Part shown: positions 24,336 to 42,719 of the stretch, piece after piece
Position numbering within the stretch: the stretch's first letter is position 1
Layout of the letters: every line of letters starts with the position of its first letter
Made by a program: the position numbers and the translations under genes
Notes under the pieces: model-generated
Told to the model about the DNA's origin: nothing
Databases searched by the model: none
Seen by the model: the letters and a program-made list of their open reading frames with translations, nothing else
DNA from: Cognatundibacterium crateris
GTDB lineage: Bacteria; Pseudomonadota; Gammaproteobacteria; Burkholderiales; Burkholderiaceae_D
Length of the DNA: 64,000 nucleotides
NCBI RefSeq assembly: GCF_010078235.1
Contig: NZ_JAABOS010000006.1
Coordinates: forward strand, 62,001-126,000
Direction of reading: 5' to 3'

Positions 24336-25772
24336 ATGCATGCGACAAATACAAAAACACAATGGGGACAATTTATACCACTGGTGACAGTGTTTTTCTT
24401 TTGGGGGTTCGTGGCGGCCAGCAACGATATCCTGATCCCAGTCTTCAAAGAAGCCTTTCATCTTAGTCAGGAGCAAAGCCAGCTAGTGTCGCTGGCTTTT
24501 TATGTGGCGTACACCGTTGGTTCGCTGATCTATCTGGCTGTTTCCCGCTTCATCGGCAATGATCTGGTCAATAAACTGGGATACAAAAATGGTCTGGCTC
24601 TCGGCTTAATCATTTCTGCTGCGGGTACGCTGTTGTTTTTACCCGCCGCTAACACCGGCTCTTTTACGCTGATGTTGTCGGGCCTGTTTATCGTGGGACT
24701 GGGATTTTCACTGCAACAGACTGCTGCCAATCCTTTGGCAATTGCCCTGGGCTCACCCGAAACAGGTTCGCAAAGACTGACTTTGGCCGGAGGTGTGAAT
24801 AACTTCGGTACGACCATAGGCCCGCTCATCGTCAGCTTTGCTATCTTTGGTGCGCCGACTAGCATGAACCGTCAACTCAGTATAGAAAGCGTCAAATTCC
24901 CCTACCTGATGTTAGGCGCTGCGTTTCTTCTGGTCGCGATTATGCTTAAATTTTCATCTCTGCCAGATCGCCCGGCGATACAGGCTAATGAAGATGCAGC
25001 AGATGGCTCGGGCAAGCAATCTGCACTGCAGTTCCCGCAGCTGGTGATGGGCATGTTGGCTATTTTTGTCTATGTCGGTGTGGAAGTATCTACCGCCAGC
25101 AATCTTCCTGCCTACATGGAGAGCAAGCTGGGTTTGCCAACCAGAGATGTGGCTCCGTTTATTTCGCTCTACTGGGCCAGCCTGATGATAGGGCGCTGGA
25201 CGGGCGCAGTTGAAGCTTTCGATTTGGGTGCGGGCTTGGGTAAGCTGTGTAAATTTTTGGCGCCATATCTGGCCTTTAGCGTGTTTTTACTGGTCAATGC
25301 AATTGCCCGGCACGAGCTCAGTCATTTTTATGTGTATGCCCTGATCGTGCTGGTACTGATTGGGGCTGACATGCTGAGTCAGGGTAATCCAGCCAAAATG
25401 CTTGGCATATTTTCTGTGCTCGGCATTTCTGCGCTGTGTATAGGGATGAGCACCACCGGCATGATCAGTGTCTACGCTTTCACCAGCATAGGTTTATTTT
25501 GCAGCACCTTGTGGCCATGCATATTTACGCTGGCAATCAGCGGTCTGGGCAGGTATACCGGGCAGGGAAGTAATTATCTGGTCATGATGATTATGGGGGG
25601 CGGTATCGTCAGCTGGCTGCAAGGCTTTGTGGCTGACAAGATCGGTATACAAATGAGTTATGTGGTGGGCGTTGCCTGTTTTTCTTACCTGGCTTTCTAT
25701 GCCTGGAAGGTGCAGGGCATTTTGCGTGCGCAAGGCATCAGGCTTGGTAAGTCCACTGCGGTAGCGCACTAA
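24336..25772 (+). CDS. FHS-type MFS sugar permease (fucose/glucose-galactose family)
   Basis: A 478-residue inner-membrane proton-linked sugar symporter with about 12 helices. Family features are FFFWGFVAASNDILIPVFK in helix 1 and GLGFSLQQTAANPLAIALG in mid-protein, typical of FucP/GluP relatives. In this locus the substrate is most likely mannose, released in the periplasm by the mannosidases, or possibly glucose. There is no clear ribosome-binding site before the ATG, and a TATTTA box only 8 bases upstream makes a leaderless mRNA possible. Two hairpins follow the gene, so it is probably transcribed separately from lacI. Confidence 0.88.
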   Translation: MHATNTKTQWGQFIPLVTVFFFWGFVAASNDILIPVFKEAFHLSQEQSQLVSLAFYVAYTVGSLIYLAVSRFIGNDLVNKLGYKNGLALGLIISAAGTLLFLPAANTGSFTLMLSGLFIVGLGFSLQQTAANPLAIALGSPETGSQRLTLAGGVNNFGTTIGPLIVSFAIFGAPTSMNRQLSIESVKFPYLMLGAAFLLVAIMLKFSSLPDRPAIQANEDAADGSGKQSALQFPQLVMGMLAIFVYVGVEVSTASNLPAYMESKLGLPTRDVAPFISLYWASLMIGRWTGAVEAFDLGAGLGKLCKFLAPYLAFSVFLLVNAIARHELSHFYVYALIVLVLIGADMLSQGNPAKMLGIFSVLGISALCIGMSTTGMISVYAFTSIGLFCSTLWPCIFTLAISGLGRYTGQGSNYLVMMIMGGGIVSWLQGFVADKIGIQMSYVVGVACFSYLAFYAWKVQGILRAQGIRLGKSTAVAH

Positions 25773-25793
25773 AATTAGCCTTGTTCATTGTTG

Positions 25794-25825
25794 TGGCGCA
25801 CTGTCATCAGTGCGCCATTATTTTT
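25794..25825 (+). terminator. Rho-independent terminator after sugar permease
   Basis: TGGCGCACTG (25794-25803) and CAGTGCGCCA (25808-25817) form a perfect 10-bp stem with a 4-base loop, followed by TTATTTTT. It ends the permease transcript before the lacI unit. Confidence 0.9.
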
Positions 25826-25852
25826 GAGCGAATTCCGCTCAGTGTTTTTTCC

Positions 25853-25892
25853 GGTCTTGTTTACTAAAATTAATAAACTGAGACCATTTTTT
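25853..25892 (+). promoter_or_regulatory. Hairpin with T-run that contains an operator-like TTTACTAAA
   Basis: GGTCT and GTTTA (25853-25863) pair with TAAAC and AGACC (25874-25885), and ATTTTTT follows, so this could be a second terminator. Within it TTTACTAAA (25860-25868) matches the candidate operator core. It is located about 330 bp upstream of lacI and could serve autoregulation. Which role is real cannot be settled from sequence. In the rest of the 25,773-26,199 spacer I see only a small leader frame. Confidence 0.4.
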
Positions 25893-26134
25893 CTCGCTTA
25901 ATTGACCCTTGATTTTGCCACTTGTATAAATGAGTTCAAATGAAGAATTCGTATTTTGGGGCAAATAGTTGCTAGCTTGAAGTGGTCTGTATCGTTTATT
26001 AAACATACTGTCGCTGACAGGCTGGAAGTCGTTAAATGGAATAGGTTTAACGATGTAAATACCAGCCAAGGTAAACGCATCACATTCGCATTTCAGCACT
26101 ATCCACTACGAGCACTATCAGCAGGAACAAAGCA

Positions 26135-26203
26135 ATGAACAAGATACAGGCTCGCTTTCCTGATTTTGAAACTGATCTAACTTGCAAGGAGTTCACGGCA
26201 TGA
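26135..26203 (+). CDS. Possible 22-residue leader peptide overlapping lacI
   Basis: An ATG with AGGA about 8 bases upstream opens a 22-codon frame whose TGA overlaps the lacI ATG (ATGA). The lacI ribosome-binding site lies inside it. This geometry fits translational coupling, but a frame this short can occur by chance, and the peptide has no recognised similarity. Confidence 0.3.
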   Translation: MNKIQARFPDFETDLTCKEFTA

Positions 26204-27183
26204 GTGTGACCATACGCGATATTGCGCAGGCTACCGGGCTGTCGATTGGTACGGTATCACGTGCATTGAAGAACCAGGGTGGATTGACCGAGGCTACCCG
26301 CGTGCGTATCAGCAAAGTCGCGCGTGAGCTCGGCTATGACTTTGCCAATCTGAAGCAGGGCAGAATCAGGCGCATCGTTTTTCTTTTACATCGGCAGCAT
26401 AATACTCTGTCGAGCAGTCCCTTTTTCTCTCCTGTGCTGCATGGAGCTGAAGAGGCTTGTCGCAGGGAGGGAATCGCGCTCTCGTTCGTGGCCATTGGCC
26501 CGTCAGAACCCGTTATGGAGCAGATACGTCTGCATCAGCCGGATGCAATTTTATGCGCTGGTTTTTTTGAACCGGAATTACTCCAGGCCCTGCTGCATAC
26601 CAGTAAGCCTATCGTGCTGGTCGATATGCGCTTGCGCGGTTATACCTCGGTGAATCCGGATAACCGGCTTGGTGGTTTTCTGGCGACCCGCCATCTGATA
26701 CAGAGCGGACGCAAACGTATCGCCATGATCTCTGGATCACTTGCGCATTTCAGTATTCAGGAAAGGGCACGCGGTTTTCGTCAGGCCTTGTATGAATCCA
26801 AAACCCTGGCCGACCCCAGTCTGGAAGTCAGCATTCCGGACCCCAGTGATATCGAAAACGGCGTGCGTGAAGCGATGCGTGAATTGCTGAGTCTTAGTCG
26901 TCCGCCAGATGCTGTGTTTTGCTACAACGATAGTGCCGCACTGACGGCGCTGCATTACTGTCTTGATCTTGGCATGAAGGTGCCGCATGACATCGCCATC
27001 GTTGGCTTTGATGATATCAATGCTGCCGCCAAATCTATCCCTCCGCTGAGCAGTATCCGAGTCAATAAAGAAGCACTGGGCGCGACCGGCGTGGATTTAC
27101 TGATACGCAAACAAACTGACGACATCATAGAAAAAACGCTGGCAGTTGAATTAATCGTACGCGAAAGCAGCTGCGACGATTAG
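26200..27183 (+). CDS. LacI-family transcriptional regulator of the mannoside locus
   Basis: A 327-residue repressor with an N-terminal helix-turn-helix (about 4-23, TIRDIAQATGLSIGTVSRALK) and a periplasmic-binding-type effector domain (from about 57; hallmarks include DAVFCYNDSAA and IAIVGFDDI). The ATG at 26200 has AAGGAG 8 bases upstream; an in-frame TTG 18 bases earlier is rejected because the binding site would fall inside it. It lies between the permease and the isomerase/kinase/mannosidase genes, so control of this locus, probably by a mannose-derived ligand, is inferred. Confidence 0.9.
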   Translation: MSVTIRDIAQATGLSIGTVSRALKNQGGLTEATRVRISKVARELGYDFANLKQGRIRRIVFLLHRQHNTLSSSPFFSPVLHGAEEACRREGIALSFVAIGPSEPVMEQIRLHQPDAILCAGFFEPELLQALLHTSKPIVLVDMRLRGYTSVNPDNRLGGFLATRHLIQSGRKRIAMISGSLAHFSIQERARGFRQALYESKTLADPSLEVSIPDPSDIENGVREAMRELLSLSRPPDAVFCYNDSAALTALHYCLDLGMKVPHDIAIVGFDDINAAAKSIPPLSSIRVNKEALGATGVDLLIRKQTDDIIEKTLAVELIVRESSCDD

Positions 27184-27238
27184 CCGCAGCACTCAGGCTT
27201 TCACTTTTCTCTCTCTTTTGAGCTCCATTCCTAATTGT

Positions 27239-28468
27239 ATGCATCCACTTCCCGACTTTAAATCAATTTCTGTCCTGACCGATCACATCAGTGACACACT
27301 GAATTTCTACTACCCGCGCAGTATTGATCCCAGTGGTGGTTTTTTTCATTACTTTAAAGATGATGGCAGTATTTATGATCTTCACAGTCGTCATCTGGTC
27401 AGCAGTACCCGTTTTGTTTTTGTGTATGCCATGGCCTATCGCCATTTCGGCAATCCCGCATATTTGGATCAAGTCAAACACGGAGTGGATTTTTTACGGC
27501 AGGTACACCGTGATTCGCTCACAGGTGGCTATGCCTGGCAACTGCGCTGGGAAAATGGCAGCAAGACCATTATCGACGCTGATAATCACTGCTACGGCCT
27601 GGCTTTCGTCATGCTGGCCTATGCCCATGCTCTGATGGCAGGGCTGACTGAGGCGCGCGCTTTTCTTGATGAGACGATGGACTTGATGGAGCAGCGTTTC
27701 TGGGAGCCGCAGCATGGTCTGTATGCCGACCAGGCGAGTGCTGACTGGCAGCAGCTGGACAGTTATCGCGGTCAGAATGCCAATATGCATGCCTGCGAAG
27801 CCTTGCTGGCTGCCTACGAGGCAAGCGGCGAACTGCACTTTTTACATCGTGCAGAAACCGTGGCGCACAACATCACGCAGCGCCAGGCCGCGCTGGCGCA
27901 AGGCATGATCTGGGAACACTACGACGCGAATTGGAACATCGATTGGAATTACAACCTCGAAGACAAGGCCAACCTGTTCCGTCCCTGGGGATTTCAGCCC
28001 GGCCACTTTACCGAGTGGGCCAAATTATTGCTGCAACTGGAAAGTCATTCCCAGCATCTTCAACATGACCAGGCATGGCTATTGCCGACTGCTGAAGCCT
28101 TGTTCGAAAAGGCCATGCAGTTTGCCTGGGACGAGCAATACGGTGGCATCTGCTACGGTTTTGCGCCTGACGGCAGCATCTGCGATGGTGACAAATATTT
28201 TTGGGTACAAGCGGAATCTATGGCCGCAGCAGCGATGCTGGCCAAACGAACGGGTCACGACAGCTATTGGGAGCGTTATGAACATCTGTGGCAATACAGC
28301 TGGCAACACATGATCGATCACGAGTTTGGTGCCTGGTTCCGTATTCTGTCCCGTGACAACCGTAAGCTCAGCGATGAAAAAAGCCCGGCAGGCAAAGTCG
28401 ATTATCACACCATGGGTGCCTGCTATGAAATCCTGCGTGTTTTGAAGGAGGAACAACATGGATGCTGA
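27239..28468 (+). CDS. AGE-family sugar isomerase/epimerase, probably mannose isomerase
   Basis: An (alpha/alpha)6-barrel protein of the N-acylglucosamine 2-epimerase superfamily, 409 residues. Candidate catalytic histidines are His184 in YRGQNANMH (176-184), His256 in FQPGHFTEW, and one near the C-terminus in DYHTMGACYE. The RGQNANMH stretch favours the mannose isomerase/YihS-type group, which interconverts mannose and fructose, over GlcNAc 2-epimerase. The fructokinase gene overlapping its 3' end by 11 bp supports mannose-to-fructose. Cellobiose 2-epimerase is a less likely alternative. The ATG at 27239 is preferred over an in-frame TTG at 27218; neither has a good ribosome-binding site. 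Confidence 0.82.
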   Translation: MHPLPDFKSISVLTDHISDTLNFYYPRSIDPSGGFFHYFKDDGSIYDLHSRHLVSSTRFVFVYAMAYRHFGNPAYLDQVKHGVDFLRQVHRDSLTGGYAWQLRWENGSKTIIDADNHCYGLAFVMLAYAHALMAGLTEARAFLDETMDLMEQRFWEPQHGLYADQASADWQQLDSYRGQNANMHACEALLAAYEASGELHFLHRAETVAHNITQRQAALAQGMIWEHYDANWNIDWNYNLEDKANLFRPWGFQPGHFTEWAKLLLQLESHSQHLQHDQAWLLPTAEALFEKAMQFAWDEQYGGICYGFAPDGSICDGDKYFWVQAESMAAAAMLAKRTGHDSYWERYEHLWQYSWQHMIDHEFGAWFRILSRDNRKLSDEKSPAGKVDYHTMGACYEILRVLKEEQHGC

Positions 28469-29381
28469 ATTTCCTGTAATGCTCAGTGCTGGCGAAGCAC
28501 TGACTGACATGATCGCTTGCGGTCATGGACAGTGGCGCAGTGTCGTAGGTGGTTCGACCTGGAATGTCGCACGCAGTATGGCCAAACTGGGACTGTCTAC
28601 CGGTTTCGCCGGTGCGGTTAGCAAGGATTTGTTTGGTCAGGAACTGTTGCGGGCCAGTGCCGATGCCGGGCTGGATTTACGCTTGCTGCAGCAATATGAA
28701 CGTCCCCCTTTACTGGCTATCGTTGGTGAAAGTACTCCCCCTGATTACTTCTTTATTGGCAGCGATAGTGCCGACTTGCATTTTGACCCGGCACAGTTAC
28801 CGACTGGCTGGAGTTCGCGTTTGCAATGGGCGCACTTCGGCGGCATCAGCCTGGCTCGCCAGCCTTTGGCTGGAAAACTGGTGGGACTGGCGCGACAGTT
28901 GAAAGCGCAAGGCGTAAAGATCAGTTACGACCCGAATTTTCGTAACAATATGCATGCTGACTACGACGCCACGCTGCATGAAATGGGGCGCCTGGCGGAT
29001 CTGATCAAGGTCTCCGACGACGATTTGCGCGGACTATTTCGCTGCGATGATGCTGATCTGGCATTCAAACAACTGCGTGCTATCAATCCTGCTGCGACCG
29101 TCTTATATACCCGTGGTGAATTGGGTGCCTCACTCCATATCGAAGAATCGGTATGGCGCGCAGATGCACTCAAGGTCGCGGTTGCAGACACCATCGGTGC
29201 TGGCGACGCCAGCATTGCAGGCTTGCTCTACAGCCTGTTCATGCATCCGGAAAGAGCGCCGGAAAATCATCTGCGCTTTGCTCTGGCAGCCGGGGCTGCA
29301 GCCTGCATGGCATCAGGCGCACAGGCGCCAGGCTTGCAACAAATAGAGGCCTTATATAAAGGCCCGTACAAAAAGAACTGA
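28458..29381 (+). CDS. PfkB-family carbohydrate kinase, probably fructokinase
   Basis: A 307-residue ribokinase-fold kinase with the N-terminal glycine-rich GGSTWNVA (31-38), DPNFR (158-162) and the ATP/anion-hole signature DTIGAGD (244-250), where Asp250 is the catalytic base. These are typical of fructokinases. It would make fructose-6-phosphate from the fructose produced by the isomerase. GGAGG precedes the ATG, and the gene overlaps the isomerase by 11 bp, so the two are coupled. Another ketose or 2-keto-3-deoxygluconate as substrate cannot be excluded from sequence. Confidence 0.85.
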   Translation: MDAEFPVMLSAGEALTDMIACGHGQWRSVVGGSTWNVARSMAKLGLSTGFAGAVSKDLFGQELLRASADAGLDLRLLQQYERPPLLAIVGESTPPDYFFIGSDSADLHFDPAQLPTGWSSRLQWAHFGGISLARQPLAGKLVGLARQLKAQGVKISYDPNFRNNMHADYDATLHEMGRLADLIKVSDDDLRGLFRCDDADLAFKQLRAINPAATVLYTRGELGASLHIEESVWRADALKVAVADTIGAGDASIAGLLYSLFMHPERAPENHLRFALAAGAAACMASGAQAPGLQQIEALYKGPYKKN

Positions 29382-29408
29382 ATCTTGACAGTGATAAAGG
29401 AGAACAAC

Positions 29409-30800
29409 ATGCGTATCAAAATATGGTCTGGCATCTTGCTGGTGCTGGCTCTCGGTGTCGCGACACTGAGTCATGCGACTCAACAAGAAAGCGTGACGGA
29501 AAAAGAAGCTGCTCATCTGGCATTACAAGTGAAAAATGAAACCCGGCATGCCTGGGAATCCTACAAACGCTATGCCTGGGGCTACGACGCCTTAAAGCCG
29601 CTGAGTAAATCCGGACATAACTGGTACGCACAATCCTTGCTGATGACGCCGGTGGATGCACTCGATACGCTGGTATTGATGGGCTTGAAGAAAGAAGCTG
29701 ATGAAGCGCGCGAACTGATCGCCACTAAGCTCTCTTTTGATCACGATATGGAAGTACAGAATTTCGAAATCACCATACGCTTGCTGGGTGGTCTGTTGTC
29801 CGCCTACCAGATGACCGAAGACCCAAGATTGTTGAATCTGGCAAAGGATCTGGGTCAGCGTTTGCTGCCGGTTTTTGAGTCGCCTACCGGCTTACCTTTT
29901 ACGCATGTGAATCTGCGTACTGGCAAGGTACGCGGCAAGATCAGTAACCCGGCTGAAACTGGCACCTTGCTGCTGGAGTTTGGCATGTTGAGCAAACTGA
30001 GCGGCGATCCGGTTTTCTATAACAAAGCCAAACGCGCGCTGGTTGCCACCTATGAGCATAGGTCCAAACTGGGGCTGGTTGGTTCAGCCATTGATGTAGA
30101 GACGGGTGTCTGGGTTAACAAGAACGCGCATATCGGTGGTGGCATCGATTCCTATTACGAGTATCTGTACAAATGCTGGAAGCTGTTTGGTGACCAGGAT
30201 TGCAAAATGATGTGGGAAAAGAGTATTCCCGGTGTCAATCAGTATCTGGCGGACGAAGTACGCGGCGAGCTGTGGTACGGTCATGCTGACATGGATAAGG
30301 GGACCCGCAACGCCACCCAATATGGCGCATTGGATGCCTTTATGCCAGCCTTGCTTGCTCTGGGTGGCGATCTGGATCGCGCCAAACGTCTGCAAGAATC
30401 TAATCTGAAAATGTGGCGCTTGCATGGCATGGAACCTGAAGCCCTGAACTATCAATCCATGCTGGTCACTTCGCCGGAATACGCATTGCGGCCTGAGATC
30501 ATCGAGTCGGCCTATTACTTGTATCACTACACCGGAGATAACAAGTACCGCGCCATGGGTAAAGAATTTTTCCTCGATTTTGTGAAACGCTGCCGCAGCG
30601 AGGCTGGATACACTGCGCTAAAAGATGTGCGTAACAGCAGCCGCGAAGATTCGATGGAGAGCTTTGTGTTTGCCGAAACCTTCAAGTATTTTTATTTGTT
30701 GTTTGCGCCAAAGAAGACCATTAATTTTGAGGATGTCACTTTCAATACAGAAGCCCATCCTTTCTGGCTGAATCAAAAAAAGAAAATCATCAAAAAATAA
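29409..30800 (+). CDS. Glycoside hydrolase family 47 alpha-1,2-mannosidase
   Basis: An inverting, calcium-dependent alpha-1,2-mannosidase of a family known mainly from the eukaryotic ER and Golgi. The 463-residue precursor has a signal peptide (cleavage near SHA, about 23), so it acts outside the cytoplasm. GH47 landmarks are DALDTLVLMGL (83-93), FEITIRLLGG with acidic Glu120, GGIDSYYEYLYK with Asp247, RPEIIES (361-367, Glu363 and Glu366) and a C-terminal FNTEAHP with Thr447, the usual calcium ligand. GGAG precedes the ATG at 29409. It follows fructokinase by 27 bp and precedes GH92 by 61 bp. No cysteine-rich eukaryote-type stem is present. Confidence 0.92.
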   Translation: MRIKIWSGILLVLALGVATLSHATQQESVTEKEAAHLALQVKNETRHAWESYKRYAWGYDALKPLSKSGHNWYAQSLLMTPVDALDTLVLMGLKKEADEARELIATKLSFDHDMEVQNFEITIRLLGGLLSAYQMTEDPRLLNLAKDLGQRLLPVFESPTGLPFTHVNLRTGKVRGKISNPAETGTLLLEFGMLSKLSGDPVFYNKAKRALVATYEHRSKLGLVGSAIDVETGVWVNKNAHIGGGIDSYYEYLYKCWKLFGDQDCKMMWEKSIPGVNQYLADEVRGELWYGHADMDKGTRNATQYGALDAFMPALLALGGDLDRAKRLQESNLKMWRLHGMEPEALNYQSMLVTSPEYALRPEIIESAYYLYHYTGDNKYRAMGKEFFLDFVKRCRSEAGYTALKDVRNSSREDSMESFVFAETFKYFYLLFAPKKTINFEDVTFNTEAHPFWLNQKKKIIKK

Positions 30801-30861
30801 GAAAAGAGTCCATCACAATGGCCGCTACCGTTGTGGTGGCTGACAAAATTCAGGAGACAAA

Positions 30862-33324
30862 TTGAATACACTATCCAACTTTGGACGCGTGGCCGTTGCA
30901 GCTGTGCTGACGCTGCTGGCCGGTACCGGCGATTTTACTTACGCAGCTAGTGCTACCGACAAGCGCTTCCCGGTCAATACGTTTATTGGTACGCAGGACG
31001 ACGGGAATACCTTTCCCGGTGCGGTCGCTCCGTTTGGCATGATACAACTCAGCCCTATCGGCGAGCACTATGCAGGCTGGCGCTATACTGATCAGAAAAT
31101 TCGTGGCTTTGGCCATTCATTTTTGTCTGGTGCAGGGTGCTGGGAACAGGGTGGTCAACTCTCTGTGTTGCCGGTCACAGGCAGCATTCAGGCGGGCGGA
31201 AATTTTGATACCAGTAAAGCTGGCAGCTTCGATCACAAGAGCTATGGTTCCCGCTATACCCACGATGGCGAAGTGGGGCAAGCGGGCTACTTCAAAGTCA
31301 GGCTCACTGACTACGGCGGCATTACCGCCGAGACCACCGCACTCACCAGAGCGGGGGCAGAGCGCTATACCTTTCATCAGCCGAATGGACGCGCGCATAT
31401 CTTGGTCAATCTGGGGCAGGCCAATGAGCGTCATTCAGTCGTAGGCAGCCATTTGCAAGTAGTGGACAAACATACGCTGGAAGGAAAAATCGTCACACGC
31501 AGTTTTTGTGGCGGGGCGCAATATACCACCTGGTTCAGGATGGAGTTTGATCAGGATTTCCGTACCCATGGTATTTGGAATGAAAGCGGCGGTACCGAAG
31601 CCAGCATGCAATTAAGTCAGCAAGGGGATAGCAAGCCCCATGGCGCCTGGCTCAGTTTCGATCTGAAGCCGGATCAGGCGGTGACGGCCATTACTGCGAT
31701 CTCCCATGTCGATGCAGAGGGTGCCCGACGTAATTTACAAGCTGACGGAAAGTCTGGCGGTAAGCTGCGCAGCTTCGATGCGATGCGCAAGCAGGCGCAG
31801 GATGAATGGAATAAGGAACTTGCCAGTGTCCGCATAGAGGATGGCAATAATGACGATCGTACCGTGTTCTACACGGCGCTGTATCATGCACTGTTGCAGC
31901 CGCTGACCGGCAATGACAGCGACGGCCGTTACCGTGGCTATGATGATGCCATTCATACCGTCGATAGCGGCACTTATTACGAATTCTTTTCGCTGTGGGA
32001 CACCTATCGCGCGCAAAATCAGCTCATCGCCTTGCTACGGCCAGAACGGGCGCGTGATATCGCCGGTTCTGTCTTGAAAATACAAGAGCAGGCCGGCTGG
32101 CTACCACGCTGGGGCTATGCGAATTTTGAATCGAATGTGATGACGGGTGATCCGGTGACACCGTTTTTGGTGGATCTGTGGCGCTACGGTGCGCTGTCAG
32201 GCAAAGAGACGGCAGCCTATGCCGCCTTACGTCAAAATGCCTTTGGTGTACCCAGCTTCAAATTACGCTCAGAAGGACGGGCAGGCAATCCACAATATCT
32301 GCGCGAGGGCTTTGTGCAATATGACAAAGGCTTCAGGGCGAAGGGGATGGACGTAGACCCGCATCACGGTGCTTCAGCCAGTCTGGAATATGCTGCAGCC
32401 GACGCCGCCTTATCCTATATGGCAGCAGCTTTGGGCGAGCAGGCTGATGCTGCTTTGTTGCGACAGCGTGCGCAAAACTGGCGTAAGTTGTGGGACAAAG
32501 ACGCGGTCGATAAAGAGTTGGGATTCACAGGATTCCCACGCCCACGGCTGGAGGATGGCAGTTGGTTCTCTGAATTGCAGGGGCATTACAATCCACGGGC
32601 AGAACATGGTTTTCATGAAGGTACGGCCTGGCAGTATCAATGGCTGGTTCCTCAGGATGTACAGAAGCTGTTTGCTGCAATGGGCGGGCGCGAGGCCGCT
32701 GCGAAGCGACTGGATGCTTTTTTTGCCTTTGATCAGATAGAAAAAAACGCCTATCAGACTGTGCGTAAAGACTGGGTAGTCGGGCCATACAGCTACTACA
32801 ATCAATATCGCTACAATCCGAATAATGAGCCAGACTTGCATGTACCCTGGATGTACACGCTGGCCGGTCAGCCGTGGAAAACAAGCACCGTATTACGTGC
32901 CGCCGAAACTCTGTTCAGCAATGCCCCCAATGGTGTGACGGGCAATGATGATTTAGGCACGATGTCCGCCTGGTATATATTCAGCAGCCTGGGCATTTAT
33001 CCGTGGATGCCGGGCAGTGGTCAGTTCTTGCTGCATGCGCCTAAGTTCGCAAAGGTGGAGCTGGATCTGGGCAATGGAAAAACGCTTAGCATAGTGAGTA
33101 AGGCAGCAGCACCTGCAGCACCAACAGGTTCAACAGGGTCAACAGCGGTCCCTTTGATCCGGCAGGCACAATGGCAAGGCAAGCCTTTGTCTCAGGTATG
33201 GCTGTCATGGGAGCAGATACAAGGTGGCGGCAAACTTGTTCTGGATCTGAGCCATGACGACAAGGCTAAATCCTGGGGCAGCAGTGTGCAGGCACTGCCT
33301 CCGGGTCCGCTGGATGGGCATTAG
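30862..33324 (+). CDS. Glycoside hydrolase family 92 alpha-mannosidase
   Basis: A calcium-dependent exo-acting alpha-mannosidase, most often alpha-1,2. The 820-residue precursor has a signal peptide (to about 28). GH92 features are NTFIGTQDDGNTFPGAVAPFGM (39-60), Glu586 in HEGTAWQY (the likely catalytic acid region) and GNDDLGTMSAWYIFSSLG beginning at 694. The start is TTG with AGGAG 5-6 bases upstream; no ATG would keep the signal peptide. It completes the rightward unit lacI-isomerase-kinase-GH47-GH92. Confidence 0.93.
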   Translation: MNTLSNFGRVAVAAVLTLLAGTGDFTYAASATDKRFPVNTFIGTQDDGNTFPGAVAPFGMIQLSPIGEHYAGWRYTDQKIRGFGHSFLSGAGCWEQGGQLSVLPVTGSIQAGGNFDTSKAGSFDHKSYGSRYTHDGEVGQAGYFKVRLTDYGGITAETTALTRAGAERYTFHQPNGRAHILVNLGQANERHSVVGSHLQVVDKHTLEGKIVTRSFCGGAQYTTWFRMEFDQDFRTHGIWNESGGTEASMQLSQQGDSKPHGAWLSFDLKPDQAVTAITAISHVDAEGARRNLQADGKSGGKLRSFDAMRKQAQDEWNKELASVRIEDGNNDDRTVFYTALYHALLQPLTGNDSDGRYRGYDDAIHTVDSGTYYEFFSLWDTYRAQNQLIALLRPERARDIAGSVLKIQEQAGWLPRWGYANFESNVMTGDPVTPFLVDLWRYGALSGKETAAYAALRQNAFGVPSFKLRSEGRAGNPQYLREGFVQYDKGFRAKGMDVDPHHGASASLEYAAADAALSYMAAALGEQADAALLRQRAQNWRKLWDKDAVDKELGFTGFPRPRLEDGSWFSELQGHYNPRAEHGFHEGTAWQYQWLVPQDVQKLFAAMGGREAAAKRLDAFFAFDQIEKNAYQTVRKDWVVGPYSYYNQYRYNPNNEPDLHVPWMYTLAGQPWKTSTVLRAAETLFSNAPNGVTGNDDLGTMSAWYIFSSLGIYPWMPGSGQFLLHAPKFAKVELDLGNGKTLSIVSKAAAPAAPTGSTGSTAVPLIRQAQWQGKPLSQVWLSWEQIQGGGKLVLDLSHDDKAKSWGSSVQALPPGPLDGH

Positions 33325-33357
33325 ACTGCACTAGTGTTGCGGTGAGCTTGTTTGTTC

Positions 33358-33398
33358 CGGGCTGCCCTTGCTAATGGCTAGGGCAGCCCGGCGTGTTT
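33358..33398 (+). terminator. Rho-independent terminator after GH92
   Basis: CGGGCTGCCC (33358-33367) pairs with GGGCAGCCCG (33381-33390) around a 13-base loop, followed by GCGTGTTTT. It ends the rightward unit before the convergent GH31 gene. Confidence 0.75.
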
Positions 33399-33434
33399 TA
33401 AGAGCGGATTTCGGCGCATAGCCGTATCCCGGTA

Positions 33435-33464: not shown

Positions 33465-33476
33465 CCGGAAATGAAC

Positions 33477-35930: not shown

Positions 35931-35941
35931 ATGATGCCTCT

Positions 35942-38626
35942 TCAAGGAGATGGTGCCGGAGCTGCGGCTTTGAGTTGAGCCAGGTGACGAATGCGCAAAC
36001 TGTCGCGCAGCGTCGTCAGGTTTTGCGCACTGTCGAGACGCAGGGAAATGCTTTCGCCAGGGAGTAAGGTCAGCGCGTTGTCGGACAAGCTGTGCTGATG
36101 CTCGCCAAAATCCAGCCAGACAGCGCGTGCCAGCTTGGTTGCATGTAAGTGCAGACGATAATGGTCCGCCTCAGCGACAATAGTCGCCTCCAGTAATGGA
36201 TCGGGTAAAGTCAGCTGTTTGGATGCTTGCAAATAGGCGATACTGCGCGCGATGCTGTTCCCGTCTCTGATTAATTCAGCCACGATAAACGTCGTATCGG
36301 CTTTGCTCGCCGGAGGTAATTCTGCATCGCTGATTTGTGCCAGTTCTATCGCGCTGTTGGCAGATAATGTGAGTGGCCGGATTTCATCGCGCAAGAGCTT
36401 GCCGTCTACGTCCATGATGCGCAATCGCCATTCCAGAGCCTGGTCTTGCAGCAGATCAGACACAGCGCTGATCCGGGTGATGCCCTTATCATGTAGCGCT
36501 GCAACGGCGAGCGGTGCGAAAAATCTTCTCGCATGAAAATGCAAAGCTTTCCAGTGCCCAAAATAATCGATGCCGGACCAGGATGCGCCAGGCCATACGT
36601 CATTCAGTTGCCAGTACAGAGAACCCATAGTGCGAGGTTTGCTGCTGCGGTGATGCAGCGCTGCCAGTTCTATGCCTTCGGCCTGCATCAACTGACTCAG
36701 ATAAATAAAATCGGCAAAGGTTTTGGGTTCCGGGTAACTGGCGCGGATATAGTGCAGCAGGCGCTGATTGCCATCACCCGCCAGGAATTTTTGATGGGCG
36801 CGGATCAGCGGGCTATCGCTGCTCTGTTCACTGCGGGGCGCAAAGGCATCGACGGTACTTTGTACTGGCCAGGCTTGCAGGCCAAATTCTGACATGAACC
36901 TGGGTGTCTCGGATAAATAAGACTCTATCGCTTGTGAGCCGGCCCAGACATCCCAGTAATGTTTGTCACCGTTATTGCTGTCATTGGCGCGATCCGCCAG
37001 ATCATTTCCTGGCGAGCTGGACCAATACGGAACCCCCGCGCCTAAACGGGTAACCTGCTCCCGCAAATCTTTACCAAACAGCGTCTGATAGCCTGCCCAA
37101 ACGTGCGCAGCGAAAATCGGATTGGCTTCGGTGAGTTTCTGGCCTATTCCCCAATCCTTCCAAGCCGTCTCCTGTTCGTTGTTGCCACACCAAAGTACTA
37201 TGCTGGGATGGGAGCGCAGACGCAGTATCTGCTCTCTGGCTTCAGCAATGACATTGTCACGAAATTTTGGATCATATGCCGGAACGACGCCACCGCCAAA
37301 CATAAAGTCCTGCCATAGCATTAAACCCAGCTCATCTGCCATGTCGTAAAACGCATCGCTTTCGTAGTAGCCGCCGCCCCACAAGCGCAGCATATTCATA
37401 TTGGCATCTTTGGCTGATTGCAGAATGGCGCGTATCTGCCCGGGCTTGACGCGGTTGGGAAACATATCGAAGGGAATTACATTGGCACCCTTGGCAAACA
37501 CCGGGATACCATTGATCACAAAGCCAAATGCCTGGCCCCATTGATCCTTTTCACGCGCCAGTTCAACCTGCCTCAAACCGGTACGCTTAGTTGTCTCCGT
37601 AATGATTTTTTTGCCCTTGCGTATGCTGAGCCTGACACTGTACAAAGCTTGCTCACCCATGCCATGCGGATACCAGCGCCGCGGATGATCTATGTGTAGC
37701 GGCAGTGAAAGTTGATTGTGTCCTTTGCCAAGCTGAGCCTGCACATTTTTGGAGAGGATCTGTTTGCCATCCGGATCAAGGATGCGTAAATCCAGATCGA
37801 TCTGTGTATCCTGATCGGCTTGTATTTCCAGCTTAGCTTGCAGTTCCGCACTTTGGGTATTCAGCCGGCCTTGCTGAATATGAAAATCCTGCAGAAACAC
37901 CTCGTCATAACTGACGATTTTGACGGCGCGCCAGATACCGGCACTGACATACCTGGGGCCCCAGTCCCAGCCATAATGATATCCAGGCTTGCGGGCAAAA
38001 TTGCCGGTCATGGCATCACGCGGCTCATCCCCAAATGGCGATGGGTAGTTACCTGCCAGCTTGATGGGCATGGCTTGTACCTGTGGCAGTAAGCGTTGTA
38101 TGGGGGAATGCAGGATGAGTCTTAATTCATTCTGACGTTTTTTGAGCAGGCTTTTGGCCGGTAAAACCCAGCGCCGGAAGGCATTGTCCGTCGTCGCAAT
38201 TTTTTCCCCATTCAGATAGATGTCGGCAAATGTATCGATACCCTCAAATACCAGATCCTGATGTCTGGATTGCCGGATATGTTCATCCAGATCAAATTGC
38301 AGCCGGTATTCCCATGCCGCATTTCCTATCCATTGCAAGGCAGCTTCAGCATCACCCACATAAGGATCGGCAATCAACTGGTGTGCCAGTAAATCTGTAT
38401 GGACATGGCCGGGAACCTGCGCTGTATGCCATTCGGTTGCTTTCGCATAGTTGGCGGCCGCAGGGTCGCTGTGTGGCAAGCGAAAAGACCAGCTGCCGGA
38501 TAAATTCTGCACACGCGTAGTGGCTCCCGTTACAGGTGCCGCCATGATCAGGCTGGATGAGGCTGCAAGCAAGCCCAGGCAAGCCTTGTGAAAATAGCGC
38601 CGGAAGGAAGAGTGGGGTAGGTTCAT
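35942..38626 (-). CDS. Glycoside hydrolase family 2 beta-mannosidase
   Basis: A retaining exo-beta-mannosidase of 894 residues with a signal peptide (about 1-33). The order is an N-terminal sugar-binding domain, Ig-like sandwiches, a TIM barrel and C-terminal beta domains. The acid/base is Glu484 in LWCGNNEQE and the nucleophile Glu580 in SEFGLQ. The overall resemblance is to mannosidase 2A types that cut Man-beta-1,4-GlcNAc or Man-beta-1,4-Man. The ATG at 38626, with AGGAT upstream, is preferred over the longer open frame to 38683. It is the first gene of the leftward unit and is divergent from the TonB receptor. Confidence 0.92.
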   Translation of the reverse strand: MNLPHSSFRRYFHKACLGLLAASSSLIMAAPVTGATTRVQNLSGSWSFRLPHSDPAAANYAKATEWHTAQVPGHVHTDLLAHQLIADPYVGDAEAALQWIGNAAWEYRLQFDLDEHIRQSRHQDLVFEGIDTFADIYLNGEKIATTDNAFRRWVLPAKSLLKKRQNELRLILHSPIQRLLPQVQAMPIKLAGNYPSPFGDEPRDAMTGNFARKPGYHYGWDWGPRYVSAGIWRAVKIVSYDEVFLQDFHIQQGRLNTQSAELQAKLEIQADQDTQIDLDLRILDPDGKQILSKNVQAQLGKGHNQLSLPLHIDHPRRWYPHGMGEQALYSVRLSIRKGKKIITETTKRTGLRQVELAREKDQWGQAFGFVINGIPVFAKGANVIPFDMFPNRVKPGQIRAILQSAKDANMNMLRLWGGGYYESDAFYDMADELGLMLWQDFMFGGGVVPAYDPKFRDNVIAEAREQILRLRSHPSIVLWCGNNEQETAWKDWGIGQKLTEANPIFAAHVWAGYQTLFGKDLREQVTRLGAGVPYWSSSPGNDLADRANDSNNGDKHYWDVWAGSQAIESYLSETPRFMSEFGLQAWPVQSTVDAFAPRSEQSSDSPLIRAHQKFLAGDGNQRLLHYIRASYPEPKTFADFIYLSQLMQAEGIELAALHHRSSKPRTMGSLYWQLNDVWPGASWSGIDYFGHWKALHFHARRFFAPLAVAALHDKGITRISAVSDLLQDQALEWRLRIMDVDGKLLRDEIRPLTLSANSAIELAQISDAELPPASKADTTFIVAELIRDGNSIARSIAYLQASKQLTLPDPLLEATIVAEADHYRLHLHATKLARAVWLDFGEHQHSLSDNALTLLPGESISLRLDSAQNLTTLRDSLRIRHLAQLKAAAPAPSP

Positions 38627-39013
38627 GTCGACATCCTGATCATCAAAAGAATTGAAGAAAGAGACAGCTGAATCAGCCATCACAAACCAACTGCAATCGA
38701 CAAAGCTGCGACAGTAAGAACGGGCTGCCAGCTTGTGTCAGCGTGCTGGATACCGCCTTATCCATAATTTTTTTGCCGACCTGGGGGATGGGCTGGGCTT
38801 CGCGCACTGATTCGTCAGACCTGCCTGAATGCGCAGTTACTGAGTTGCTAAGCGACTGAAAAAACAACGCGGATTGATCCGAAATTTGCATGCGACAGAG
38901 GAACTGCTGCGCATGCATTTCATCGTTTATAGGTAAACAGGCCCTGAATCCCTCTGATGAAGGTTTATATAGCGCCAATTTTTTTACTTCAATTAATACA
39001 AAAAAATCTGCGC

Positions 39014-39037
39014 TTGTTTATAGAGTTCACTAAACAA
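39014..39037. promoter_or_regulatory. Inverted repeat TTGTTTA-N10-TAAACAA
   Basis: Perfect 7-bp arms at 39014-39020 and 39031-39037. Its right half includes TTCACTAAA (39026-39034), one mismatch from the candidate operator core. It is a possible site for the LacI regulator or another dimeric protein. Confidence 0.4.
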
Positions 39038-39317
39038 AATTTCTTACTGTCGGCAGCGCTTGTGCGCTCGCGCGCATCGTGCCTGGGCTGAAGTTCAGCT
39101 TTCGTGATACGGAGTCTGGATTTAGAACTTGTATCAGGATGCTTACCATCAGCGAAGAGGAGAAAGTTGACTTAACTGCGCGCAGTCCTGATTGCAAAGG
39201 CAGTATGTCCGGCTTTGGCTGACAGAGCAGGCATGCGTGACAGCCGACGCGGAATGACAGAGTCAGTTGGCATTACATAGATTATGCGGGAGCACGATCC
39301 ACACTTTTCGACTTGTG

Positions 39318-39326
39318 TTTACTAAT
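39318..39326. promoter_or_regulatory. Near-match to candidate operator (TTTACTAAT)
   Basis: Eight of nine bases match the TTTA(G/C)TAAA core, and it lies between CTTG and CAAG (39312-39330), adding outer symmetry. It is 268 bp upstream of the receptor ATG. Confidence 0.3.
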
Positions 39327-39440
39327 CAAGCTAAACTTCGCCCAAATTTTGAGATCTTGTTTAAGTGTGTTTTCTTTTTTTGTATAAACGGATTTGGGTG
39401 TATTTCCGTGCCCAACGACATGTACATAGAAAAAATGTCG

Positions 39441-39449
39441 TTTAGTAAA
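39441..39449. promoter_or_regulatory. Candidate LacI-family operator TTTAGTAAA
   Basis: An exact match to the core, within CGTTTAGTAAATCG, 145 bp upstream of the receptor start. It adjoins the right arm of the AACGACAT/ATGTCGTT repeat, so binding and RNA folding could compete. Confidence 0.4.
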
Positions 39450-39593
39450 TCGTCAGGACTCTCATCAGTTTGCGTAATGCGCTTTCTGGGGAAGCGAGCA
39501 GATTCGGAAGGTGCAGGTCTGTTCCACGAACGAAGAGTAATCAGCCAGCGCCATATAACAAGCCCGCTGTTGGCCACAATCAGGAGACATAAT

Positions 39594-42500
39594 ATGAGCT
39601 TTAGAATTGATCCCGCCTCACATCATTATCGTCGTTGTCGCTTTACCCCCATCGCCATGGCTGTGAGTGCCGCATTGCTGGCTCTTTCCAGCGCGCACGC
39701 ACAAACTGCTCCAACAGAAAAACCTGCTCAGAAGGAAGCAGAAAAATCAACCGAAACGACACAACCAGCTGCAGTGGTCGTGACAGGCTACCGTTATGCT
39801 ATCGAGCATAGCCTTGATCAAAAGCGCTCTGCCAATGCGATTGTTGAAGTGGTGACGGCTGAGGATGTTGGTAAATTCCCTGACAAAAATGTCGCTGATG
39901 CCTTACAACGCGTACCCGGTGTGATTGTGAATCGCAGCGGTGGTGAAGGTAAAAATGTCAGCGTTCGTGGCTTATCTTCTGAACTGACACTGACCCAGCT
40001 GAATGGCAATTACATCGCCACAGCTGAATCCAATGGCGATCCTACCCGTTCATTCAACTATATGCTGATGCCCTCGAATATGCTGTCGAGTGCAGAGCTG
40101 TATAAGACACCGGAAGCGCGTCTCGATGAAGGTGGTATTGGTGGCACGGTTATCTTGCGCACCCGTCGTCCGCTGGAGGTCAAGTCGCATAGCGGTTTTA
40201 TTTCGACGGAAGGAACCTGGGCGGATACCAGCAAGAAGCTTGATGGACAGTTTTCCGGTCAATATGCCTGGCATGATGAAAGCAATCGCTTTGGCGTGCT
40301 GGTCGGCTACACCCAGCAAAAGCGCACCACACGTACCATGGGGGCCAGCACAGAAAACTGGCAATGGTATGCCGATAACTACAAGACTAATCCACCTGTC
40401 GATGTCAATGGCGCACCGTCGGGGCTGAACTCCAAATGGTGGGGGCAATCCGGTTTCTACGACCAGAATGGCAAGTACTACAAAAACTTCATGATGCCAA
40501 CCTCAGTCAATCTGGATGTGAAGAGCGAGGATCGTGAACGCAAGGGCGGACAGCTGACCTTGCAATTCAAGCCTGTGCGCAACCTGAATCTGACAGCCAA
40601 CTATTTCCGTTTCGATCTGTCGCAAAACTCACAAACCAATACTTTAAAAATTCCGGAATGGAATCTGGCACGCTATGACGGAGACGGCAACTGGCCAGGC
40701 GGGCGTATGCTCGACGGCCTGACTTTCGACCGTAGCGGTACTATTGTCACTGGTGCGCAATACAGCGCACGTCCCGGCAAGACTTATTATTGCAGTGGTA
40801 GCGCAGCAGCGGCTGGTGGCCTCAAAAATACAGGTGGTTTCGGTCCTGATGACTGTACTATCCCGACGCCGCAGATTACCGGTAGCTTTAATCGCGAAAG
40901 CTCTTTGTCACAGACAGCTGATTTCGAAGCTGAATGGACTGGTAGCTCGATCGATGCGACTTTCAAGGGCGGACGTACCTGGGCCAGCGGTGGTCCTGAG
41001 ATGCAATTTACCATGCCGATCAAGCCGCGCATGCAAAACGCGGACAGCAGCTGGACACTGGGGAACTACGCCAGTTCCTGGAGTACCGTCGGTACGCCGA
41101 CCATGAACTTCTCGCCGCAACTGATGGATAACCTGAGAAAAGGCATAGGCGAAATCGACCTGGGTTCAACCTCTTCTTCATGGACTAAGAACAGTACCGA
41201 GCAAAAGTATGCGCAGGCCGACTTTACCTGGCATGTCGATGGTGACTGGCTTGACTCCTTGCAATTTGGTGCCAAGTACCGTGATGGCGGCATTCGTCGC
41301 AGCACAGGAAATAATTACTGGGCCTGTAAGGGCACGGATGGCAGCAACTATGATAACCGCTACCAGGCAGGTTGCGACTCCAGTGCTTCCAAGTTTCAGC
41401 CGGGCTTTTTGTATCCCACATCGCTGGATAATATTGCCGGTGGCTTTAAGGCCAGTGCATTCCCGGCGATTAATTTTCCTGCCTATATCGCCTACCTGAA
41501 TCAGACCTATGGTGCTATGCGGACGCGTAACGAAGACAATTTCGTGTACAACGTCAGCGAAAAAATTACAGCAGCTTATCTGCAGGCGAATATCAAAACG
41601 AATCGCCTGCGTGGTAATGCCGGTTTGCGACTGGTGCAAACGAAGCAGCATGCCGATTCGACCGATCAGGTGGATTACTACAACGATTATTTCTACAACG
41701 GTGCGAATGGTGCGCCTGCACCCTGCCGTGCGGGTGGGCTGCCAGCCACCGGTGCGCCTGCCGGTTCCGGCTGCATCAGCGGTTACACCACACTGCCGGA
41801 CAGTATAGGACGCAAGTCGTCTTTCGTCGTCAGTTCCCTGGATCGCACTTATACAGACGTACTGCCCAGCTTTAACCTGGCCTATGATTTGAGCGACAAA
41901 CTATTGTTGCGTGCAGCAGCTTCCAAGGTAGTGGCGCGGCCAAGTTATGGTGACATTGCGTCGCCTGGCAGTTTGAATTACTACAGCCAGGAATATGTGA
42001 ATGATCGTCGTCTGATCGGCGGTGCTGATCAGCAGGGCTGGTTTGGCCAGGGCAGCAACAAGGGCTTGGAACCATACAAGGCCACTCAGTTTGATTTGGG
42101 GCTGGAATGGTACTTCGATCGCGGATCGGTACTTGGTGCTGGTTTGTTCCGCAAGAATGTCAGCAATTTTGCGGTACCGGTACTGGTAAGTATGCCTATG
42201 GTCGTTGGTGGTAATCCTGTGACGGTACAAAACTTTTCCACCAATGCGGGTGGCCGCGACGCGGTGTCGCAAGGCGTTGAATTGTATGCGCAGCATACGT
42301 TCAAATCCGGTGTTGGATTTCAGTTTAACTATACCTATAACCAAACTAATCAAGCCGCAATCACGCTTGCTAATGGTAAGGAGCTCGGTAAATCACCGCT
42401 GGTTGGCAGCGCCAAAAATCAAACCAATCTGACCTTGTTTTACAGCACAGAGCAATACCTGGTGCGTGCTTCGTATAACCGCCGTGGCGAAGTCGTGGGA

Positions 42501-42719
42501 GGGCTGATTAATGGGCTGAATGTTTATCAGGACCCATACAGCCAGCTGGATCTGAACGCAGCTTATAACATTAGTCCGCAACTCAGCCTGACTGCTTCTG
42601 TGTCTAACCTGACGCAATCGGAATCAAGTTCTCATCTGGGTAACGACACCAGGGATCGCTTTTACTCGAATGCCTATTCAGGTCGCGTTTTTTACGTGGG
42701 CCTGAATTACAAGTTCTGA
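39594..42719 (+). CDS. TonB-dependent receptor for oligosaccharide uptake
   Basis: A 1,041-residue outer-membrane active transporter. It has a signal peptide to AHA (about 36), an Ala/Glu/Thr-rich linker with VVVTGYRYAIEHSL at the TonB-box position (about 62-75), a plug (75-190; KNVADALQRVPGV, VSVRGLSS) and a 22-strand barrel ending YVGLNYKF with terminal Phe. The style is that of Caulobacter-type large receptors used for glycans. The ATG at 39594 has AGGAG 7 bases upstream. No SusD partner is present, as usual in proteobacteria. The substrate is inferred from its neighbours to be mannose-containing oligosaccharides. Confidence 0.9.
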   Translation: MSFRIDPASHHYRRCRFTPIAMAVSAALLALSSAHAQTAPTEKPAQKEAEKSTETTQPAAVVVTGYRYAIEHSLDQKRSANAIVEVVTAEDVGKFPDKNVADALQRVPGVIVNRSGGEGKNVSVRGLSSELTLTQLNGNYIATAESNGDPTRSFNYMLMPSNMLSSAELYKTPEARLDEGGIGGTVILRTRRPLEVKSHSGFISTEGTWADTSKKLDGQFSGQYAWHDESNRFGVLVGYTQQKRTTRTMGASTENWQWYADNYKTNPPVDVNGAPSGLNSKWWGQSGFYDQNGKYYKNFMMPTSVNLDVKSEDRERKGGQLTLQFKPVRNLNLTANYFRFDLSQNSQTNTLKIPEWNLARYDGDGNWPGGRMLDGLTFDRSGTIVTGAQYSARPGKTYYCSGSAAAAGGLKNTGGFGPDDCTIPTPQITGSFNRESSLSQTADFEAEWTGSSIDATFKGGRTWASGGPEMQFTMPIKPRMQNADSSWTLGNYASSWSTVGTPTMNFSPQLMDNLRKGIGEIDLGSTSSSWTKNSTEQKYAQADFTWHVDGDWLDSLQFGAKYRDGGIRRSTGNNYWACKGTDGSNYDNRYQAGCDSSASKFQPGFLYPTSLDNIAGGFKASAFPAINFPAYIAYLNQTYGAMRTRNEDNFVYNVSEKITAAYLQANIKTNRLRGNAGLRLVQTKQHADSTDQVDYYNDYFYNGANGAPAPCRAGGLPATGAPAGSGCISGYTTLPDSIGRKSSFVVSSLDRTYTDVLPSFNLAYDLSDKLLLRAAASKVVARPSYGDIASPGSLNYYSQEYVNDRRLIGGADQQGWFGQGSNKGLEPYKATQFDLGLEWYFDRGSVLGAGLFRKNVSNFAVPVLVSMPMVVGGNPVTVQNFSTNAGGRDAVSQGVELYAQHTFKSGVGFQFNYTYNQTNQAAITLANGKELGKSPLVGSAKNQTNLTLFYSTEQYLVRASYNRRGEVVGGLINGLNVYQDPYSQLDLNAAYNISPQLSLTASVSNLTQSESSSHLGNDTRDRFYSNAYSGRVFYVGLNYKF

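Follow-up and report, generated by a model that had tools for sequence, protein, structure and literature searches.

A GH47-centred gene cluster of Cognatundibacterium crateris as a probable LacI-controlled utilization locus for released high-mannose N-glycans

Introduction

Carbohydrate utilization (CUT) loci place a TonB-dependent receptor, degradative enzymes, an inner-membrane transporter and a regulator side by side (Blanvillain 2007; PMC1790865). Closer to N-glycan breakdown stand the Xanthomonas nix cluster (nixD–nixL), which joins a TonB receptor to exo-acting enzymes, among them the beta-mannosidase NixH, the hexosaminidase NixG and the alpha-mannosidase NixK (PMC6718126, PMC5700972), and the high-mannose polysaccharide utilization locus (PUL) of Bacteroides thetaiotaomicron, in which alpha-mannosidases trim imported high-mannose glycans in the periplasm (PMC7021837). 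The Shewanella Man pathway comprises manI, manK, the GGP-family permease gene manP, manR regulators and an outer-membrane receptor (PMC2996990). A review of N-glycan breakdown by bacteria, published in 2023, gives glycoside hydrolase (GH) families GH38, GH92 and GH125 as the exo-alpha-mannosidases characterized for high-mannose glycans, and the term GH47 is absent from its main text (PMC10154615).

Here, we analyse a nine-gene cluster with a GH47 gene at its centre in a 64,000-nucleotide stretch of DNA (hereafter, the window) from Cognatundibacterium crateris. GH47 enzymes are better known from eukaryotic cells. We read the cluster, with a probability of about 0.72, as a LacI-controlled CUT locus for mannose-rich (high-mannose) N-glycan oligosaccharides that have already been released, and we describe the gene content, shared promoter sites, enzyme families and relatives on which this reading draws.

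Results

The window covers positions 62001–126000 of contig 39 of a genome of 4.31 Mb (42 contigs, 99% complete; G000), which groups with 42 other genomes in the genus Undibacterium. A first-pass annotation, made from the letters alone, had assigned nine genes between 24336 and 42719 to named families, and all of them are present as open reading frames (ORFs), each with at least one Pfam family model above its gathering score:

24336–25772, + strand: major facilitator superfamily (MFS) sugar permease of the GluP/FucP type (Pfam MFS_1; NCBIfam gluP TIGR01272, 230 bits, cut-off 202.55)
26182–27183, + strand: LacI-family regulator (Pfam LacI and Peripla_BP_3)
27218–28468, + strand: probable D-mannose isomerase (AGE superfamily) without a leader (GlcNAc_2-epim, 390 bits)
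28458–29381, + strand: PfkB sugar kinase, possible fructokinase (PfkB, 124 bits)
29385–30800, + strand: predicted GH47 alpha-1,2-mannosidase with leader peptide (Glyco_hydro_47, 421 bits, cut-off 22.9)
30862–33324, + strand: predicted GH92 alpha-mannosidase of a distinct subgroup, with leader peptide (Pfam GH92, 486.5 bits, and GH92N)
33477–35945, − strand: GH31 alpha-glucosidase-like enzyme with leader peptide (GH31 domains; barrel 386 bits)
35942–38683, − strand: predicted GH2 exo-beta-mannosidase with leader peptide (Pfam GH2 galactose-binding-like, 182 bits, and mannosidase Ig domains)
39267–42719, + strand: TonB-dependent outer-membrane receptor (Pfam plug and beta-barrel; TIGR01782, 735 bits, cut-off 310)

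The isomerase and PfkB genes overlap by 11 bases, and GH31 and GH2 by 4. LacI likely starts at the ATG at 26197 rather than at 26182, and the receptor likely at the ATG at 39594, not at 39267. Several further claims of the first-pass annotation held when examined. Read by eye, each of the four glycoside hydrolases has a hydrophobic leader at its N-terminus, as would be expected of exported enzymes, and the isomerase and kinase, predicted to be intracellular, carry no such leader, nor does LacI. No SusCD pair was seen, the receptor being of the TIGR01782 type and the SusD family giving no match. Likewise, GH18, GH20, GH85, PNGase and GH76 were all absent from the 30 window ORFs (a subset of those in the window) scanned with Pfam.

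A search of related genomes, as suggested in the first-pass annotation, found the gene set again: the layout is the same in four other Undibacterium genomes, five carry variants of it, and most of 30 Xanthomonadaceae GH47 neighbourhoods hold it reshuffled. GH47 occurs in 12 of the 43 Undibacterium genomes, in two of them (G026 and G012) as fragments only, and the neighbourhoods of all 12 were read. The window's layout (type A) runs MFS–lacI–manI–pfkB–GH47–GH92, then GH31–GH2 on the opposite strand, then the receptor, and is found in five genomes, namely G000, G048 (U. umbellatum), G034 (Undibacterium sp. TS12), G020 and G031, the last on a contig that ends within GH2, with the receptor out of view. 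All nine window genes are open and 78–97% identical to those of the four same-layout relatives, short receptor N-terminal pieces (55–63%) aside; LacI reaches 96–97% in these four, the MFS permease is 75–92% identical across the nine other Undibacterium loci, and the nearest named matches of GH47 are those of U. umbellatum (89%) and strain TS12 (85%). GH20 adjoins GH2 in G048, G034 and G020, and glucokinase adjoins GH31 in G048, G020 and G031 (Pfam on the G048 copy); neither gene is present in the G000 locus.

Four variant loci (G035, G011, G044 and G030) read manI–pfkB–GH47–GH92, with MFS preceding in three of them and a GH2–GH20 pair some 8–9 kb onward in G035 and G011; the stretches of G044 and G030 break off early, and the pfkB match of G030 is split over two frames. 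The fifth variant, G027, contains lacI, two divergent GH92 genes, MFS, manI, pfkB and GH47. As for the two fragments, G026 has only a piece of GH47 (197 residues matched, L066–L067), and G012 retains MFS and manI beside a GH47 piece of about 90 matched residues (L068–L069), which suggests that the genus is losing the locus piece by piece.

Palindromes of 16–20 bases with at most one broken pair yielded no shared operator; an 11-base palindrome, GTTTANTAAAC, emerged instead from words shared between loci. Its exact form occurs once in the whole 4.31 Mb genome, at position 25994 of the window, compared with 12 copies of the control pattern read backwards, and with at most one mismatch it occurs 68 times, compared with 209 for the reversed control. 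The window holds seven sites at this stringency (shuffle mean 1.11; none of 100 shuffles as high), a count that depends partly on discovery, since the motif was derived from loci of this same set (G048, G034 and G020). Six of the seven fall within the three promoter regions of the locus (1.77 kb, with GC below that of the window), where dinucleotide shuffles averaged 0.11 sites and none of 2000 reached six:

24090–24100, no strand: operator-like site upstream of the MFS gene, one mismatch (GTTTANTAAAC scan; identical letters at the matching place in four relatives)
25859–25869, no strand: operator-like site between MFS and lacI, one mismatch (GTTTANTAAAC scan; kept in four relatives)
25994–26004, no strand: perfect palindrome GTTTANTAAAC upstream of lacI (genome scan; kept in four relatives)
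39025–39035, no strand: operator-like site in the GH2/receptor divergent region, one mismatch (GTTTANTAAAC scan; kept in three relatives)
39317–39327, no strand: operator-like site in the same region, one mismatch (GTTTANTAAAC scan; kept in three relatives)
39440–39450, no strand: operator-like site in the same region, one mismatch (GTTTANTAAAC scan; kept in three relatives)

Wherever their stretches reach, the relatives keep the letters of these sites, all six in G048, G034 and G020 and the first three in G031. Exact copies of GTTTAGTAAAC lie upstream of manI in G035, G044, G011 and G030, and upstream of lacI in G027. Five Xanthomonadaceae stretches contained no GTTTANTAAAC site with at most one mismatch, which fits the identity of only about 30% of their LacI. 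With six sites in three promoter regions, the cluster probably forms one regulon, and LacI is the putative protein binding the palindrome. Similar gene sets are also present among other Undibacterium and Xanthomonadaceae, and a rare palindrome is common to the three promoter regions; the grouping of these genes thus goes beyond chance.

The window copy differs from its relatives between GH2 and the receptor. No GH20 (PF00728) match was found in the G000 genome, whereas the other six of the seven genomes searched had at least one, and the place of the gene is taken by letters that match none of the three relatives:

38684–38963, no strand: place of GH20 and one operator in G048, G034 and G020; about 280 bases here, without a match to the relatives (blastn, tblastn)

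No GH20 relic is recognizable in the GH2/receptor gap, where blastn and tblastn against G048, G034 and G020 gave nothing better than E 0.5, and the seventh operator of the relatives, some 180–340 bases from the GH20 start, is missing as well. Since GH2 and GH20 are also neighbours in two variant loci, loss from the window's locus is the simpler reading. The GH20 absence noted in the first-pass annotation stood and extends to the genome, but in relatives the gene is part of the system. G000 has a single GH3 match; it scores 209 bits with the hexosaminidase model PRK05337 (cut-off 207), which we take to be of the NagZ type. The missing GH20 and operator, together with the two Undibacterium genomes that retain only a GH47 fragment, would suit a locus in decay, one that no longer supports growth on N-glycans; yet all nine genes are open and well conserved and the six operator sites are kept, which makes decay extremely unlikely.

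The surroundings of the locus differ too. Its flanks (5.9 kb on the left and 7.3 kb on the right) gave no tblastx match, with E up to 1e-15, to those of G048, G034 and G020, and the right flanks of these three match one another; thus, the locus seems to be placed elsewhere in this genome. Its neighbours appear unrelated: the gene on the left encodes a HAD-like protein, and those on the right encode a BLUF photoreceptor, a protein with DUF3267 and a dehydrogenase-like protein with DUF3683. The blue-light sensor gene (BLUF, 43210–43650) is the first gene after that of the receptor.

Among the enzymes, GH47 has as its nearest solved chain CkGH47 of Caulobacter K31 (260 bits), a bacterial GH47 that hydrolyses alpha-1,2-mannobiose and for which residues D249, L310 and R363 are named (PMC10685318). 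Human endoplasmic reticulum (ER) mannosidase I and Golgi mannosidase IA follow at about 238 bits each. In the alignment, the window enzyme keeps the equivalents of all three residues, as well as the Glu two positions after R363, presumably a catalytic residue. Two positions before the active-site Asp, it has Gly where ER mannosidase I has Arg and Golgi mannosidase IA has Leu; that Arg restricts ER mannosidase I to one cut.

The nearest PDB chain to GH92 is 7zgm (326 bits), then 6f8z, 6f91 and BT3990 (2wvx, 235 bits). The GH92 structure reported in PMC9522356, a source that also names 7ZGM, is an alpha-1,3-mannosidase, compared there with the other alpha-1,3 structure, BT3130 (6F8Z), and alpha-1,2-specific GH92 enzymes are stated in the same source to have Trp, Glu and His in common at the +1 subsite. 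The His-Glu pair of BT3990 is not kept in the window GH92, nor in eight other Undibacterium and four Xanthomonadaceae orthologues, in an alignment that is gapped at this place; the window enzyme and the same 12 orthologues have an extra stretch ahead of the NEP motif. The columns were picked by the residue numbers that we assume for the BT3990 pair. With this numbering and the gaps in mind, we consider it a moderate inference that GH92 is not an alpha-1,2 enzyme, as the first-pass annotation had supposed. Lacking the His-Glu pair, GH92 would act on the remaining linkages, and alpha-1,2-mannose would probably be removed by GH47.

GH2 is best matched by the beta-mannosidase structure 6byc (892 bits); the Pfam GH2 TIM-barrel model scores 19.6 bits, below its cut-off of 21, so the assignment rests on the other domains and this match. 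We take 6byc to be a Xanthomonas enzyme and, specifically, XAC3075. The latter is listed as nixH, the beta-mannosidase of the N-glycan cluster (PMC6718126). For GH31, the top row is maltase-glucoamylase 9kz6, whose 465 bits are a total of several stretches. Next come 5djw (415 bits) and 2g3m (390 bits), presumably MalA of Sulfolobus, with chains of neutral alpha-glucosidase AB (ER glucosidase II) at no more than 371 bits, below both; a special relationship to ER glucosidase II was therefore not supported. The suggestion that GH31 strips terminal alpha-glucose remains plausible, without specific closeness to the ER enzyme.

The isomerase is nearest to PDB chains 3gt5 (555 bits) and 5x32 (495 bits), with the next at 166; their depositors call both 2-epimerases, and we take 5x32 to be a mannose isomerase. 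Among NCBIfam models, D-mannose isomerase scores highest for it (236.5 bits, cut-off 600), and fructokinase scores highest for PfkB (127 bits, cut-off 450).

Beyond the genus, a draw of 399 genomes from the order gave GH47 in one, that of the window, while three further Undibacterium in the draw were without it. GH47 was also found in 10 of 398 genomes drawn from the phylum, two of them weak matches (E 1.5e-4 and 2e-4), and in 31 of 198 genomes of Xanthomonadaceae, the family of Stenotrophomonas, spread over 15 of 54 genera, one being a short fragment. Searching about 20 kb around each of the 30 full Xanthomonadaceae matches (tblastn, above 90 bits), we detected GH92 in 28, mannose isomerase in 26, LacI in 26, MFS in 22, GH2 in 12 and GH20 in two. 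The receptor was seen in four, and many stretches stop short of its expected position. Two loci (L149 and L153) have GH2 but no MFS or isomerase match. The window-like GH92 motif NPNNEPDLH is present in 14 of the 30 loci and YAHGNEPSHH in 15, L129 having both and two having neither in the stretch read. The GH47 loci of Xanthomonadaceae (L127–L154, L084 and L085) fall into two kinds, one with the window-like GH92 and often GH2, the other with a different GH92 (33–37% identity) on the opposite strand and no detected GH2. In Stenotrophomonas loci the receptor gene lies next to GH92, its product being 55–57% (L070) and 70% over 990 amino acids (L071) identical to the window receptor. The leader of a Stenotrophomonas GH47 (L005:9854–11293; L005 and L084 are one genome) ends in LSAC, by eye a lipoprotein-type motif, unlike that of the window GH47.

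These neighbourhoods bear on whether the locus is instead a general one for mannosides or beta-manno-oligosaccharides, with GH2 acting on plant mannan fragments and GH31 on maltodextrins. Shewanella mannoside pathways list manI, manK, manP, manR and an outer-membrane receptor (PMC2996990), and the GH31 matches do include maltase-glucoamylase and other alpha-glucosidases. However, the isomerase accompanies GH47 in far more Xanthomonadaceae loci than GH2 does (26 versus 12 of 30), and Pfam found no endo-mannanase among the locus genes. We know of no role of GH47 on beta-mannan, and regard this explanation as very unlikely.

In a GH47 tree of 55 sequences, from which the two fragments were left out, the 10 sequences from Undibacterium group together (99/96); their group joins that of three Xanthomonadaceae sequences (95/82) and lies within Xanthomonadaceae. 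The tree is rooted on five Caulobacter-like sequences that are very distant, support is weaker for some of the branches in between (89/88, 82/72), and other bacterial groups are hardly sampled. Those five GH47s (class inferred) are 34–37% identical to that of the window, and within the 20 kb read around them none of the cluster genes was seen, except for one GH92 in L088. This nesting suggests lateral transfer, likely into Undibacterium from a Xanthomonadaceae-like donor. The system is not peculiar to this strain or to betaproteobacteria, the nearest sampled GH47s outside Undibacterium being those of Xanthomonadaceae. A GH47 59% identical to the window's occurs in a metagenome bin labelled as a Methanomicrobia archaeon (L013:10001–11257) and pairs with a Saprospiraceae sequence on long branches; a binning error or a transfer is possible.

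Regarding glycan release, GH85 was found in none of 12 genomes and PNGaseA in none of 10, in a search that did not include the PNGase F-type (PF09112/PF09113). Of the three GH18 genes in G000, two lie near each other, both with chitin-binding modules and one with ChiC as well, and the third shows no domain besides GH18. A chitinase-type cluster in this GH20-less genome (L072:2678–8050) consists of GH18-ChiC, GH19 and GH18, each with CBM5/12. With no release enzyme recognized, the natural interpretation is that glycans are taken up free or after their release, and the first-pass annotation was probably right to propose it. As an endoglycosidase-freed glycan retains one GlcNAc, for which GH20 is not needed, the window strain may do without GH20. 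In the relatives, GH20, which suits the chitobiose core, adjoins GH2 in three of the four same-layout loci and in two variant loci, supporting a role in N-glycan use.

The same data can be turned towards a different substrate, the alpha-mannosides, O-linked or short, of cell-wall mannoproteins in fungi or algae. GH47, GH92, the isomerase and the kinase need nothing but alpha-mannosides, GH20 is missing from the window genome, 15 Xanthomonadaceae GH47 loci of one clade are without a detected GH2, and GH18 and GH19 chitinase-type genes suit a fungal diet. We nevertheless consider such a role rather unlikely, because the GH2 beta-mannosidase and, in relatives, the adjoining GH20 are what an N-glycan core requires, and GH76 was not seen in the locus. 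Yeast alpha-mannan, raised in the first-pass annotation, seems an unlikely substrate too, given that GH76, GH99, GH38 and GH125 were not seen in the locus, to which this search was confined.

Discussion

Enzyme families, key residues and recurrence in relatives agree with the first-pass annotation that mannoside or N-glycan utilization is the likely role of the locus, and we favour released high-mannose N-glycans as its substrate. Substrates, linkages, cell location, the site-binding protein and the inducer are what we infer from sequence in the following outline. The receptor would carry released high-mannose glycans into the periplasm, where GH31 would trim any terminal alpha-glucose, GH47 the alpha-1,2-mannoses and GH92 the remaining alpha-1,3- and perhaps alpha-1,6-mannoses, before GH2 cleaves the core beta-1,4-mannose off N-acetylglucosamine (GlcNAc). 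The MFS permease would import mannose, and perhaps glucose, and the isomerase and PfkB kinase would yield fructose and then fructose-6-phosphate. LacI would repress all units via the GTTTANTAAAC sites until a mannose-derived inducer appears.

Several observations weigh against this outline. The window genome has no GH20, GH85 or PNGaseA match and no recognized endoglycosidase-type GH18 (PNGase F-type enzymes were outside the search), so that, as far as tested, it cannot finish an N-glycan alone. The structure-chain comparison gave no clear N-glycan signature in GH31, and the isomerase and kinase score below the curated NCBIfam cut-offs. Among Xanthomonadaceae, the isomerase match is missing in four loci, two of which (L144 and L152) match only receptor, GH92, LacI and GH47, and the 15 GH47s of one clade lack a detected GH2 nearby. 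In addition, four of the variant loci of Undibacterium (G035, G011, G044 and G030) keep the operator-like site although the stretch read has no lacI match.

A more specific version of the N-glycan reading can be offered only tentatively. The locus may be dedicated to scavenging high-mannose glycans in their untrimmed ER form (glucosylated Man9 at the largest), as set free when eukaryotic cells lyse, putting GH31 and GH47, families known from ER trimming, to catabolic use. It would have arisen in Xanthomonadaceae and passed laterally to Undibacterium, and GH47 would be paired there with GH92 enzymes of a subgroup whose linkage specificity is new.

A locus that is centred on GH47 and recurs in two bacterial families would add a route for N-glycan breakdown along with new trimming enzymes, and it would provide a testable regulon with a candidate site. 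In the open-licence PMC literature searched, no description of a GH47-centred locus was found.

Judged by its predicted parts, the locus is neither a nix cluster nor a SusCD locus. The nix cluster has alpha-fucosidase, NixF glycosyl hydrolase, beta-glucosidase-related and beta-galactosidase genes of its own (PMC6718126, PMC5700972), none of which was seen in the window locus; the alpha-fucosidase, NixF glycosyl hydrolase and beta-galactosidase families were absent from the 30 window ORFs scanned, and the beta-hexosaminidase has its GH20 counterpart in the loci of relatives but not in this genome. GH47, GH31, LacI, the isomerase and the kinase stand in their place. The B. thetaiotaomicron PUL employs SusC/SusD, a surface endoglycosidase and three alpha-mannosidases (PMC7021837), and its alpha-1,2 cut is made by BT3990, a GH92 (PMC9522356, PMC7021837), where GH47 would probably serve here. 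With a TonB-dependent receptor, GH47, GH92, GH31 and GH2 beside it, a gluP-type MFS permease, and LacI together with conserved palindromes, the locus has the make-up of a CUT locus. It differs in its predicted substrate from the CUT loci of the original description, where the substrates named include sucrose, pectin, xylan and starch and N-glycans are not among them (Blanvillain 2007; PMC1790865). What is new here is the GH47-centred make-up of the locus and its candidate regulon.

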